From Acidobacteriota bacterium (GTDB lineage Bacteria > Acidobacteriota > Blastocatellia > UBA7656), in NCBI GenBank assembly GCA_040754075.1, contig JBFMDH010000005.1:62001-126000 (forward strand): a stretch of DNA of 64,000 bases, read 5' to 3'. The notes below the pieces were generated by a model, which saw only the letters and a list, made by a program, of their open reading frames with translations, was not told where the DNA came from and did not search any database. Shown here in pieces: positions 5,543 through 9,974 of the stretch. The translations under genes and the position numbers were made by a program. Position 1 is the stretch's first letter. Every line of letters begins with the position of its first letter.

Positions 5543-5663
5543 CGTGTCGGCATTTTTGCCCCCTCAATAACAACGTCGCTACAATTTAAGCCCTCACCCT
5601 TGCTGGATTCCCGCTACCTTCGGGAGTTGTTATTGTCTGTTTATGTTTTAAGGAGAAGTGAGT

Positions 5664-6896
5664 ATGTTTGCTCAGACATCAACTGCAAGCTGTCCGCTAT
5701 GCAAGCATCCATCGGATGCCAATGCCAAACTCAACGGTTATCCGACCAGACTTTGCGAAAAGTGTCGTTCATTGATTGAAACCATCTTTCCGCAAAATAT
5801 CGCAAGAAATGGCGCAAGCCTGAACGCCCCGCTTTTGCCGGTTCAGGAACTCGTCGAAACTCCGGTATTAGAACCACCAACGTTTTCAAACCAGGATTTG
5901 CTCAAAGCCCCGGAAAGCCCTGTACTCATCGAGCCTTCTTTCAGCGAACCGGCGGAAAAGCCTGCGGTTGATGAACCAACTTTCGTAGAGGTGCAAAATG
6001 ATTTCGCTATCAGCAGTTCGTTGCCTGATGGGGGATTCTATTTTCAGGATATGAATGCGCCACAGGAATTCACAGAAGCCCATAAACTTCCGCAGCAGGT
6101 GGATGCGACGCCTCAATTTCATGAACCGGAACCGGCGGCACAACCCTTGCCGATAAGCGATAGCGCACCTTTACCGGTCTATGAAACTGCGCCTGTCAAC
6201 GGCAATAACGCTTACCAGAGTGCGCCGTCTACCATGCAGGAGTTCCCTGCCGAACAAAACGGCAAATTTGTCACCGGTTCCATCATTGATGACACGCCAC
6301 GTTGGAATACGCAGATGGATGATTTTCCTTATCTTGTGCAAAACCCGCAAGGAAACCGTCTATCATCCAAACTGCTGCTGGCTTTAGGTGGCATCGGCTT
6401 GCTTGCCGTTTTAGCTGCGGGTTATCTTTTCGTTTATAAACCCTATTTTGCGGCTGCGAAAAATAGCGCGCAAAAACCTGCCGCGAATACTCCGCAGGTG
6501 ACGCAAACTCCATCACCTGCGAGTGCTGCCGAAAATTCAACGGCGGCAAATGCTGCTGCTTTAACCGACACCAACCCTCAACAGGCGACTGCGTCAAAAC
6601 CCGAAGAGCCGAAAAAAGCCGAAACCATGCCAACCCCTGAAGTTTCGGGGCAAGGGCAGTTCGCTTTGCAGGCTGGCGTTTTTTCCAGTGAAGCCAACGC
6701 CGGAGAGTTTGCTGAACGGTTAAAAAAAGCTGGCGTTCCGGCTTATACGGCGGCGGCAAAAGCCAATAAATTCCGGGTGCTGGTGGGCAAGTTTGTTTCC
6801 GCAAGTGATGCGCAAAAATTTATCGCGCAGGCGCAAGCCCGTGCAAATTCCGCAGGGATAAAGTTAGAATTACTGGTCTCCGAAATGAACCCATAA
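5664..6896 (+). CDS. Zinc-ribbon, membrane-anchored SPOR-domain protein
   Basis: This 410-residue protein has three parts. A treble-clef-like zinc ribbon (CPLC near 10 and CEKC near 33) is at the N-terminus. A long Pro/Glu-rich disordered segment follows to about residue 230, then one membrane span (LLLALGGIGLLAVLAAGYLFVY). The C-terminal SPOR domain (about 325-405) begins FALQAGVFSSEANA. SPOR domains bind glycan strands lacking stem peptides at the septum, so the C-terminus is expected in the periplasm and the zinc ribbon in the cytoplasm. AAGGAG at 5650-5655 is 8 bases from the ATG at 5664 but only 2 from the upstream GTG at 5658, which decides the start. The next gene, a peptidoglycan-recognition protein, follows after 18 bases, supporting a cell-wall operon. 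Confidence 0.85.
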   Translation: MFAQTSTASCPLCKHPSDANAKLNGYPTRLCEKCRSLIETIFPQNIARNGASLNAPLLPVQELVETPVLEPPTFSNQDLLKAPESPVLIEPSFSEPAEKPAVDEPTFVEVQNDFAISSSLPDGGFYFQDMNAPQEFTEAHKLPQQVDATPQFHEPEPAAQPLPISDSAPLPVYETAPVNGNNAYQSAPSTMQEFPAEQNGKFVTGSIIDDTPRWNTQMDDFPYLVQNPQGNRLSSKLLLALGGIGLLAVLAAGYLFVYKPYFAAAKNSAQKPAANTPQVTQTPSPASAAENSTAANAAALTDTNPQQATASKPEEPKKAETMPTPEVSGQGQFALQAGVFSSEANAGEFAERLKKAGVPAYTAAAKANKFRVLVGKFVSASDAQKFIAQAQARANSAGIKLELLVSEMNP

Positions 6897-6914: not shown

Positions 6915-8288
6915 GTGTTAAAGGATTTGCAGCAACCCGATAGCCATTACACCAAAATCGTTGACCGCTATGCGCGTTATATCGAATCGCCGGTTTTGCG
7001 TTTGAAATTCCTCAATTCCGTAATGAAATCGCAACCGCAAGGCAGTTTGTTGATGCGCTTACCGTGGGTTGGCTCGCTACCGGAACGCGCCCGTTTGATT
7101 ACCGAACTGGCGAAAGTTTTGCCGCCAACTAAAGGCGTGCCTTTTTCACTTCGCTTAACTGCGTTTCTTTATCGCATACGGTTTCTCGTTTATGGATTGT
7201 GCGCGGTTGGCGTGCTTGCCGCAGGCTCAGGGTTGGTCTATTTAGGCTCAAAAGCGGTCACTAGTATAACCAGCGCCATTCAGGCAAAAACCACATCCGG
7301 TCAAACGGCAAATGATAATGTCAGTTCAGGTGAAGCGGTGGCAGCAATCGGCTCGGAAGCCCCTCTGCCGCTCGATAGAGTCTGGCTTGCGGAAAAAACC
7401 GCGACGGACGAGTTCTATAGCAACGGCGCAAGAATATTAACCGAATATGAAACCGCGGGGGCAAAGCGCGGTTTCTATGGTTTCGATTTGGAAAAACTCA
7501 GCAAAAATGCCGATGATTACGAAGTGCTTTCCAAACCTGTGGGCATCGTTTATCACTTAACCGAAAGCGACCTGCTGCCGTTTTCAGACCAATACAACAA
7601 ATCGTTGATTCGCACCTCGGAAGAGTTGATGGATTATGCGCGACGGCACAAACTGTACAATTACATCATTGACCGCTTTGGCAGAATTTTTCGCATCGTG
7701 CGCGATGAAGAGGTCGCCTATCACGCGGGCAATTCCATCTGGAGCGATAGCCGCCACGCCTATGTCAATTTGAATGCCAGCTTCATCGGCATCAGTTTTG
7801 AGGGCAAATCGGGCACTGCCAAAGGCGCGGACGGCATTAACGAAGCGCAGATTTATGCGGCGCGGGTATTGACCGCCGTGTTGCGCTCGAAATATCAAAT
7901 CAATGATGCCAATTGCACGACGCACGGTTTGGTTTCGACAAATCCGTCGTCGCGATTGCTCGGTCATCACACCGATTGGGTTGCCAATTTTCCTTTTGAA
8001 GCAGTGGGACTGACGAATAAATATAATGCGGAATTACTGGCGATTTCGCGTTTCGGTTTCGCTTACGATCAATCGTATTTAATCGCTGCCGGTGGCAAAC
8101 GCTGGCAAGGATTGACGCAGGCGGAAGCGGCATTGTGGGATACCGCGAAGAAAAATGGCTTTGTCATCGAACAACAACGTCGCGCCTTGTGGGAACTGTT
8201 TGAACGCGCTTACGTGAAGCAACACGAGTTGGATAAACAGCGTGTGGATACGAATGTCGAGATGCCGGAATCGACAAGCGACCAGTAA
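6915..8288 (+). CDS. Membrane-anchored N-acetylmuramoyl-L-alanine amidase/PGRP-like protein
   Basis: This 457-residue protein starts with GTG. The N-terminal 90 residues are cytoplasmic-looking and precede one membrane span (FLVYGLCAVGVLAAGSGLVYL). The region from about 205 to 370 is an Amidase_2/PGRP fold: IVYHLTESD, NYIIDRFGRIFRIV, YHAGNS, ISFEGKSG, and GHHTDW near the end. The His in YHLTE, the His in the LLGHHTDW stretch and the Asp after it are positioned like zinc ligands of T7-lysozyme-type amidases. It probably binds or cuts peptidoglycan outside the membrane. The C-terminal 90 residues are helical and unassigned. It follows the SPOR gene closely and is followed by a hairpin and the HU-actin fusion gene. 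Confidence 0.8.
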   Translation: MLKDLQQPDSHYTKIVDRYARYIESPVLRLKFLNSVMKSQPQGSLLMRLPWVGSLPERARLITELAKVLPPTKGVPFSLRLTAFLYRIRFLVYGLCAVGVLAAGSGLVYLGSKAVTSITSAIQAKTTSGQTANDNVSSGEAVAAIGSEAPLPLDRVWLAEKTATDEFYSNGARILTEYETAGAKRGFYGFDLEKLSKNADDYEVLSKPVGIVYHLTESDLLPFSDQYNKSLIRTSEELMDYARRHKLYNYIIDRFGRIFRIVRDEEVAYHAGNSIWSDSRHAYVNLNASFIGISFEGKSGTAKGADGINEAQIYAARVLTAVLRSKYQINDANCTTHGLVSTNPSSRLLGHHTDWVANFPFEAVGLTNKYNAELLAISRFGFAYDQSYLIAAGGKRWQGLTQAEAALWDTAKKNGFVIEQQRRALWELFERAYVKQHELDKQRVDTNVEMPESTSDQ

Positions 8289-8289
8289 C

Positions 8290-8367
8290 AACTAGAGATT
8301 TTAGTTTTCAGTTTTCGGCGTTTGATTTTAATCTAACACCTGACCAATAACTGGAAACTATTCTAGT
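8290..8367. repeat. Imperfect inverted repeat between amidase and HU-actin genes
   Basis: The left arm (8290-8313) and right arm (8349-8367) are imperfectly complementary; ACTAGA and CAGTT blocks match on both sides. The left arm repeats AGTTTTC at 7-base steps. The right arm ends directly before the ATG at 8369, so folding would cover that start. It may end the amidase transcript or attenuate translation of the next gene. It belongs to the same class as the hairpins at 9804 and 15473. Confidence 0.55.
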
Positions 8368-8368
8368 C

Positions 8369-9802
8369 ATGAGAAAATCTGACCTCATCAAAGAAGTAAT
8401 GTCACGCGCAAAACTCCGGGAGCGTGATGCGACGCGCGGCGTTGAAGCGATTTTGGAGGTCATCGCGCGTGAGGTCAGCAGCGGTAAAATCATTCGTATA
8501 CGCGGTCTGGGTAGTTTGCAGTTAAAAGACAAACGTCGCGGTTTTACGCCCCCTTCGCCAAACCGGCGCGCATCCAAGCCCATACCTGAAGGCAAAGTTG
8601 TTATAATCAAACCGAGCAGGAAAGCCATTGAAAATTTAAACCCGGAGCTGTTCCTGTCGGAACCATCCGAACCCGTTAAGCTCAATACGTTCAAGAGTGA
8701 GAATCAGGACGAGCAAAAGCTTACAAATCCCGAAATCAAAATTGGAGGCAAGAAAGCAATGTCAAAAGAAAAAGAGAATGAACATGCCGGCACCGAAGAA
8801 GTAACCAGCGAAGGTGGGGCGCTGGGGCTGGATATTGGCACCAGCCGTTTGGTGCTGGCTGGTGGCGCAATTGATAAAATCAAAACGCAAACCCAGCTAA
8901 ATGCTTTTATCACCGTCCCGCATTCAAAATTTACGGAAAATATTTTAAAGCAAAACAAAATCACTTATTACTTGAACGGCAGCAATTCGATTCAGGTTTA
9001 CGGCAATGAAGCCGGACGTTTTGCCAACGTCTTTAACATCGAAGTCCGCCGTCCGATGATGTCCGGCACCCTCAATCCGAATGAAGAACAGGCAATGCCG
9101 GTTATTCAGGAAATCATCAAACAACTTTTAAAAGGCAAAGGCAAAGGTGAAACCCTGCGCTTTAGCGTGCCCGGCCCGGGGCGCGACGGCAGCGCGGCGG
9201 CAGACCTGGTCTATCACGAAGCCATGTTGAAAAAGGTGCTCGATGAAATGGGCTATGTGTCAAAAGGCGTAAACGAAGGCATGGCAGTGGTGTTTGCCGA
9301 ACTTGAAAAAGAGAACTTCACGGGCATCGGCATCAGTTGCGGCGGCGGCATGTGCAACGTGGCGCTCGCGTTTATGTCGATTCCGGTGATGACTTTCAGC
9401 ATCGGCAAAGCCGGAGATTACATCGACCGCAGCGCCTCATCTGTAACCGGCGATGTGGCAACGAGAATTCGCATGATTAAAGAAGAGGGTCTGGATTTAT
9501 CGCGCCCTGCCGAAAACAAATACGAAAACGCCCTGCATATCTATTATGAAGACGTGGTGCTTTCCTTAGTTGAATCGGTGCGCAGCGCGCTTTCGGAAAC
9601 CAAAAATATGCCGGCGATGGAAAAAGCCATTCCCATCGTGCTTGCGGGCGGCACGGCTGCGCCCAAAGGTTTTCTGGAAAGGTTCCAGAAGGCGGTCGAA
9701 CAGGATAAATTCCCGCTGCCGATTTCAGAAATTCGCATGGCAAAAGACCCGCTGACAACCACCGCGCGCGGATGTCTGATTGCCGCGCTCTATGACGCTT
9801 AA
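8369..9802 (+). CDS. HU-family DNA-binding domain fused to actin-like ATPase
   Basis: This 477-residue protein has two unrelated parts in one frame. Residues 1-95 are a HU/IHF fold: RKSDLIKEVMSRAKL, then IRGLGSLQLKDK, then the arm and KPSRKAIENLN. Residues 96-130 are a polar linker. Residues 131-477 are an actin/Hsp70-superfamily ATPase with phosphate-1 GLDIGTS, phosphate-2 ISCGGGMCNVAL and adenosine motif VLAGGTAAPKGF, closest in feel to MreB/ParM/FtsA-like proteins. It could polymerise while attached to DNA. The ATG at 8369 has no clear ribosome site and abuts a hairpin. By contrast, GGAGG at 8744-8748 sits 10 bases before an in-frame ATG at 8759 that would make the ATPase alone. Two products from one gene are therefore plausible. 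Neighbours concern peptidoglycan and membrane anchoring. Confidence 0.8.
   Translation: MRKSDLIKEVMSRAKLRERDATRGVEAILEVIAREVSSGKIIRIRGLGSLQLKDKRRGFTPPSPNRRASKPIPEGKVVIIKPSRKAIENLNPELFLSEPSEPVKLNTFKSENQDEQKLTNPEIKIGGKKAMSKEKENEHAGTEEVTSEGGALGLDIGTSRLVLAGGAIDKIKTQTQLNAFITVPHSKFTENILKQNKITYYLNGSNSIQVYGNEAGRFANVFNIEVRRPMMSGTLNPNEEQAMPVIQEIIKQLLKGKGKGETLRFSVPGPGRDGSAAADLVYHEAMLKKVLDEMGYVSKGVNEGMAVVFAELEKENFTGIGISCGGGMCNVALAFMSIPVMTFSIGKAGDYIDRSASSVTGDVATRIRMIKEEGLDLSRPAENKYENALHIYYEDVVLSLVESVRSALSETKNMPAMEKAIPIVLAGGTAAPKGFLERFQKAVEQDKFPLPISEIRMAKDPLTTTARGCLIAALYDA
8744..8761 (+). promoter_or_regulatory. Strong internal ribosome site and alternative ATG
   Basis: GGAGG (8744-8748) is followed after a 10-base spacer by ATG (8759-8761), in frame with the actin-like half. 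It is stronger than anything upstream of the annotated start at 8369. It probably drives a separate HU-less 347-residue ATPase. Confidence 0.65.
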
Positions 9803-9803
9803 T

Positions 9804-9961
9804 CAGTAGCCGGTGGTCAGTAGCCGGTAGCCAGAACAGATTAACGACGCTCTCGCACTCTATTGCTGAAAAAAATTAAATCAGCGTTTAAAGAGAGCAA
9901 ACCATATAACCGAATACCAGCTACCGGCTACCGACCACCGACCACCGGCTACCGGCTACTG
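9804..9961. repeat. Hairpin made of degenerate heptamer repeats
   Basis: The left arm (9804-9834) and right arm (9917-9961) are inverted copies of one another. Both are built of 7-base units of the form YRGTRGY (CAGTAGC, CGGTGGT, CGGTAGC). The arms enclose about 80 unrelated bases. It lies immediately after the HU-actin stop. It resembles the short tandemly repeated repetitive elements known from cyanobacteria, but in inverted orientation. A remnant unit (CGGTAGCCGG) occurs again at about 10863, just before the acetyltransferase ATG. Confidence 0.75.
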
Positions 9962-9974
9962 CTTGCCTGCCAAT

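Follow-up and report, generated by a model that had tools for sequence, protein, structure and literature searches.

An HU domain fused in frame to a volactin-family actin, with a conserved internal start and wall-enzyme neighbors, in Acidobacteriota

We analyzed a stretch of 64,000 nucleotides from an Acidobacteriota bacterium (contig JBFMDH010000005.1, positions 62,001 to 126,000; hereafter the window). Here a gene that follows two wall-enzyme genes on the same strand encodes an HU/IHF domain, a variable linker and an actin-superfamily ATPase, and it carries a second potential start between the two domains (Table 1).

Table 1. Features of the HU-volactin locus, in window positions
Feature	Position	Strand	Basis
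SPOR-domain protein, upstream neighbor	5658..6896	+	PF05036, E 5.2e-10
N-acetylmuramoyl-L-alanine amidase, upstream neighbor	6915..8288	+	PF01510 (Amidase_2), E 1.7e-15
Intergenic inverted repeat/hairpin just 5' of the first ATG	8291..8367	+	z -3.1
HU-volactin fusion open reading frame, long form, 477 aa	8369..9802	+	Open-frame reading, profile matches, 12 genomes
HU/IHF domain, aa 1-91	8369..8641	+	PF00216, PDB HU/IHF chains by sequence, model, pN/pS
HU beta-arm region, basic, without the RNPxTG of canonical HU	8525..8593	+	Alignment with canonical HUs; low model confidence
Variable linker, predicted disordered	8642..8758	+	pLDDT <50; sequence and length vary among relatives, always in frame
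Internal Shine-Dalgarno GGAGG	8744..8748	+	All 12 fusions and unfused relatives
Internal ATG, from which the short form (actin alone, 347 aa) would begin	8759..8761	+	Aligns with the start of unfused relatives
Volactin-family actin ATPase domain, aa 152-473	8822..9787	+	PF25216; archaeal identity; MreB/MamK fold
Phosphate-2 loop GISCGGGMCNV, family signature (archaeal volactins: GISxGxGMxNV)	9329..9361	+	Loop comparison

The fusion frame is free of internal stops. It matches the HU/IHF family over the full profile (43.6 bits against a cut-off of 22.4; E 3.5e-11; model positions 1-90 of 90) and the Volactin family almost end to end (255.4 bits against a cut-off of 35; E 1.2e-75; model positions 3-321 of 321). 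Both scores lie above their cut-offs and confirm the proposal of a first-pass annotation that one frame joins an HU/IHF fold to a full actin ATPase. Membership of MreB (PF06723; 23.6 bits, cut-off 27) and of MamK (NF040964; 30.5 bits, cut-off 400) was not reached. An AlphaFold model of the protein, built with a 12-sequence alignment (mean pLDDT 71), has an HU-like body of helix-helix-strands-helix, a disordered linker (aa 91-153, pLDDT below 50) and an actin fold. The best PDB matches of the modeled actin fold are MreB and MamK, and the HU part resembles HU/IHF chains in the PDB by sequence. Canonical HU genes are present elsewhere in the same genome, and MreB genes were found in all 22 genomes tested, which rules out volactin as a replacement for MreB. 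The fusion is therefore an extra, dedicated combination of HU and actin that exists beside the ordinary genes for both.

Our search for the fusion covered Acidobacteriota. The first-pass annotation had suggested looking for the same domain order in related genomes, and HU, linker and volactin were in frame in 12 genomes from three families. In the family labels of the genome search tool (f1-f8), seven of these, including the window, belong to f1, one to f2, another family of the window's order, and four to f8. All 12 match both the HU/IHF and the Volactin profiles. A volactin gene was present in 34 of the 162 genomes of the window's class, taken to be Blastocatellia, and the remaining 22 copies, from families f6 and f3, are unfused. 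In these 22, the match to a profile of the fusion mostly begins at or after the linker, and matches further upstream cross stop codons. Scans with profiles detected no HU in the surroundings of volactin, either in the f6 loci or in loci from outside the class. HU and volactin were separate neighboring genes in no relative that we examined; relatives were either fused or had no HU at that place. On the volactin tree a single change suffices to account for the fusion, with weak branch support (50/42). A search of genome contigs with a single protein returned two close relatives.

Several candidate arrangements were rejected. The extension of G042 through a TGA reads as the tail of the amidase and not as an HU remnant. 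In G367, an apparent amidase-volactin fusion (an 825-aa frame) proved to be an artefact of GC-rich sequence, the amidase lying in another frame. We also set aside the idea that the fusion came from a plasmid or a phage: the relatives of volactin carried by plasmids come from haloarchaea, and in those from viral contigs no HU was found by profile.

HU is normally an obligate dimer, and binding of DNA by HU dimers is established for the family. The HU part of the window protein has a net charge of +13, compared with -5 for the ATPase, and in 9 of the 12 fusions the HU charge is at least +6, as basic as a canonical HU of the same genome. DNA binding by the fused HU is thus plausible from its sequence. 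The RNPxTG motif of the DNA-inserting arm occurs in canonical HUs, both in this genome and in the class, and in none of the 12 fused HUs. Furthermore, little of the arm is left in G029 and G007, and the net charge is just +1 to +3 in G003, G033 and G056. Given the loss of the motif, the reduced arms and the low charge in some relatives, DNA binding may not hold across all fusions.

The main rival to a DNA tether is consequently a pure dimerization role, in which HU would serve as a module for dimerization or protein docking and the long form, as a dimeric seed, would nucleate or cap actin filaments and leave DNA unbound. The helical dimerization part is the best conserved part of the HU, the variable arm and low charges described above fit such a role, and 5 of the 12 fusions also match the HU-HIG profile. 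Against it stands the strongly basic character of HU in the window and in most of the other fusions, and we regard this explanation as rather unlikely. Domains assigned by eye indicate that other proteins of the class (L145, L146 and L147) also begin with an HU-like region, there followed by a TPR-like region; L145 and L146 have in addition a PilZ-like tail and adjoin a PP2C-like phosphatase.

The internal GGAGG and ATG that the first-pass annotation had seen as a start for the ATPase alone are present, and this in-frame pair is kept in 12 of 12 fusions. They lie 10 nt apart in the window and in the relative nearest to it, and 4 nt apart in the other fusions. Unfused relatives begin at the matching place, where the sequence is GGAGG or differs slightly from it. 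The first glycine codon of the internal Shine-Dalgarno sequence is GGA in every fusion, whereas GGA makes up 8-24% of glycine codons elsewhere in these genes; multiplied together, the GGA frequencies give 1e-10, a value that is overstated since the genomes are kin. Because the signal is kept throughout, uses a minority codon and coincides with the start of unfused relatives, the internal start is likely to function, which would give two products.

These observations also bear on a simple domain fusion, in which the long form alone would be made and the internal signal would be a relic of the unfused ancestor. Use of the same start by unfused relatives indicates that the signal is ancestral in form, and selection acts on the fused frame, which is open, as such an explanation would have it. 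The linker, however, has changed in both sequence and length around a GGAGG and ATG that are retained in all 12 genomes with the minority glycine codon, and we consider a relic unlikely.

No Shine-Dalgarno sequence precedes the first ATG, as the first-pass annotation had noted in proposing that the long, DNA-bound form would be rare. The absence of a ribosome site holds, and the proposal of rarity is unsupported, because starts of this kind are the majority in the window: an SD-like 4-mer is found at 15 of 41 long ATG-started open reading frames and is absent at 26. A start without a Shine-Dalgarno sequence is ordinary here and is no sign of weak translation of the long form. In G002, G005 and G003 the first ATG lies about 20-40 nt past the amidase stop, so ribosomes that finish the amidase may re-initiate there to make the long form. 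The hairpin against the first ATG, also noted earlier, is real in the window (-25.5 kcal/mol) and ends one base before the start. We recognized no counterpart when the upstream intergenic sequences of relatives were compared by eye, and since these sequences look unrelated, a role as a conserved regulator is unsupported. Two further repeats were observed: positions 9803-9965 of the window, 3' of the fusion gene, hold a long inverted repeat of CAGTAGCCGGTGGTC-like units, and palindromic intergenic repeats also lie 5' of the gene in some relatives.

Over HU and linker, the 12 genomes together have no stops in frame and 100 and 69 stops in the two other frames, both of which carry stops in every fusion genome. 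Linker length varies widely among fusions, always by whole codons. For five close pairs of fusion genes, pN/pS was 0.39 for HU (95% CI 0.33-0.46; 0 of 5000 bootstraps at or above 1), 0.60 for the linker and 0.13 for volactin, and the residues M1, L6 and G48 are invariant in the fused HU domains. The stop counts and pN/pS rule out a spurious long open frame. By these ratios, HU is translated and selected as a protein, more loosely than the actin.

These results leave little room for the idea that the short actin alone is functional and HU is an in-frame leader, either decaying or merely coupling ribosomes to the internal start. HU does evolve faster than the actin and its start lacks a Shine-Dalgarno sequence; moreover, in G003 (L040:6169-7494) the C-terminus of HU cannot be aligned and is seemingly lost, as after a compensated frameshift, the fusion there still being in frame. 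Selection on HU, its invariant residues and the complete absence of in-frame stops across three families nevertheless make a leader improbable. That two genes were joined by a sequencing error at the linker or by an HU gene's loss of its stop codon, a simpler view raised in the first-pass annotation, can be dismissed, since 12 separately assembled genomes from three families carry the same fusion, HU has a pN/pS of 0.39, and HU and volactin with a stop between them were never found as neighbors in the genomes of the class that we examined.

The two upstream genes link the locus to the cell wall. The amidase has one N-terminal hydrophobic segment (aa 90-108) and the SPOR protein has one hydrophobic segment (aa 239-257), both membrane-spanning-like. 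Directly 5' of volactin there is an amidase gene in families f1, f2 and f6 and in one f8 genome, as well as at most volactin loci from the phylum's other classes, and the SPOR gene is kept beside volactin in f1 and f6. The amidase neighbor is missing in three f8 genomes. For the f8 genome G056, which is not the one with the amidase, the product of a gene a short way upstream is a peptidoglycan transglycosylase, and a gene in G033 looks homologous to it. Because amidase and SPOR neighbors also accompany unfused volactins, the link between actin and wall enzymes is probably older than the HU fusion. Plasmid positioning, one role that had been proposed for the fusion gene, finds no support: the contig is 311 kb long, and the gene's synteny with SPOR and amidase is conserved. 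As for the other proposed role, a link from nucleoid to wall, the conservation of the upstream wall-enzyme genes speaks for it, and DNA tethering and the parts of nucleator and polymer are what we continue to infer.

Taken together, we tentatively favor a reading in which one gene makes two forms of an actin. Initiation at the first ATG would give the long form, HU-linker-actin, and initiation at the internal ATG, 10 nt past GGAGG, would give the short form, actin alone, if both starts are used. By analogy with the archaeal volactin HVO_2015, the short form would be the filament protein, binding nucleotide and polymerizing. The long form should be a DNA-bound dimeric actin, because HU is normally an obligate DNA-binding dimer, and it would seed or anchor short-form filaments on the nucleoid. 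At its opposite end the system would probably meet the envelope, where the SPOR protein and the amidase may each be held by their single membrane-spanning-like segment. In this way the position or segregation of the nucleoid could be coupled to wall remodeling and cell separation. The fully specified version of the two-form reading is a one-gene DNA-tethered actin system in which the long form binds the nucleoid and nucleates short-form filaments, and these link the chromosome to membrane-anchored SPOR protein and amidase so that cell separation is coordinated with where the nucleoid lies; taken as a whole, it is rather unlikely.

Both domain families are already known, and their architecture here is new. 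We did not find the HU-actin fusion, its internal start or its link to the amidase in the literature available as open-access text. In the DNA-moving actins known to us, a separate adaptor connects filament and DNA. The HU-actin fusion, kept across the divergence of three families together with a second start, would to our knowledge be the first actin built into a nucleoid-binding protein. In addition, volactin, a family described from a haloarchaeon, is also present in Acidobacteriota, where its pairing with a peptidoglycan amidase gene makes its role in bacteria testable.

Among known systems, volactin is the closest. Its Haloferax volcanii member, HVO_2015 (VolA), assembles in vivo into filaments that are dynamic (PMC10869688). 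The whole ATPase domain of the fusion belongs to the same family by profile (PF25216), is 35-36% identical to haloarchaeal volactins of Haloarcula and Natrinema, and shares with archaeal volactins the P1 loop GLDVGT (GLDxGT) and the unusual P2 loop GISxGxGMxNV. Unlike archaeal volactin, the fusion is bacterial and has an N-terminal HU and linker, an internal start and SPOR and amidase neighbors; the two archaeal volactins compared have no N-terminal extension. The family also occurs in viral and phage records. Volactin-like actins are on 22 IMG/VR contigs and, at 33% identity, in two records of uncultured phages (LR745208.1:337426-338466, 485 kb; LR756511.1:548798-549796, 595 kb). In two volactin-family genes on viral-classed IMG/VR contigs (L103:1603-3780 and L104:4596-6869), the P2 loop is interrupted in frame, at a different position in each, by some 380 aa that have ends resembling those of inteins (C...HN|C) and an HNH-like motif.

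Salactin of Halobacterium salinarum (PF25229) is an actin homologue implicated in the distribution of DNA in daughter cells (PMC10746226). It forms a separate Pfam family, to which just 1 of the 12 fusions has a weak match. We know of no DNA-binding domain in Salactin. MreB and MamK are the nearest solved structures to the actin of the fusion by fold and sequence profile, the fusion falling below both family cut-offs and separate MreB genes being present in the same genomes. With HU/IHF the fusion shares the whole domain, its helical body and strands being conserved, whereas canonical members have the RNPxTG arm and the fused HU lacks this motif and is joined to an ATPase. In plasmid segregation by ParM-ParR-parC, an actin filament is nucleated on DNA and attached to it through a DNA-binding partner. 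The adaptor to DNA is a protein of its own in that system, whereas in the fusion adaptor and actin are one protein.
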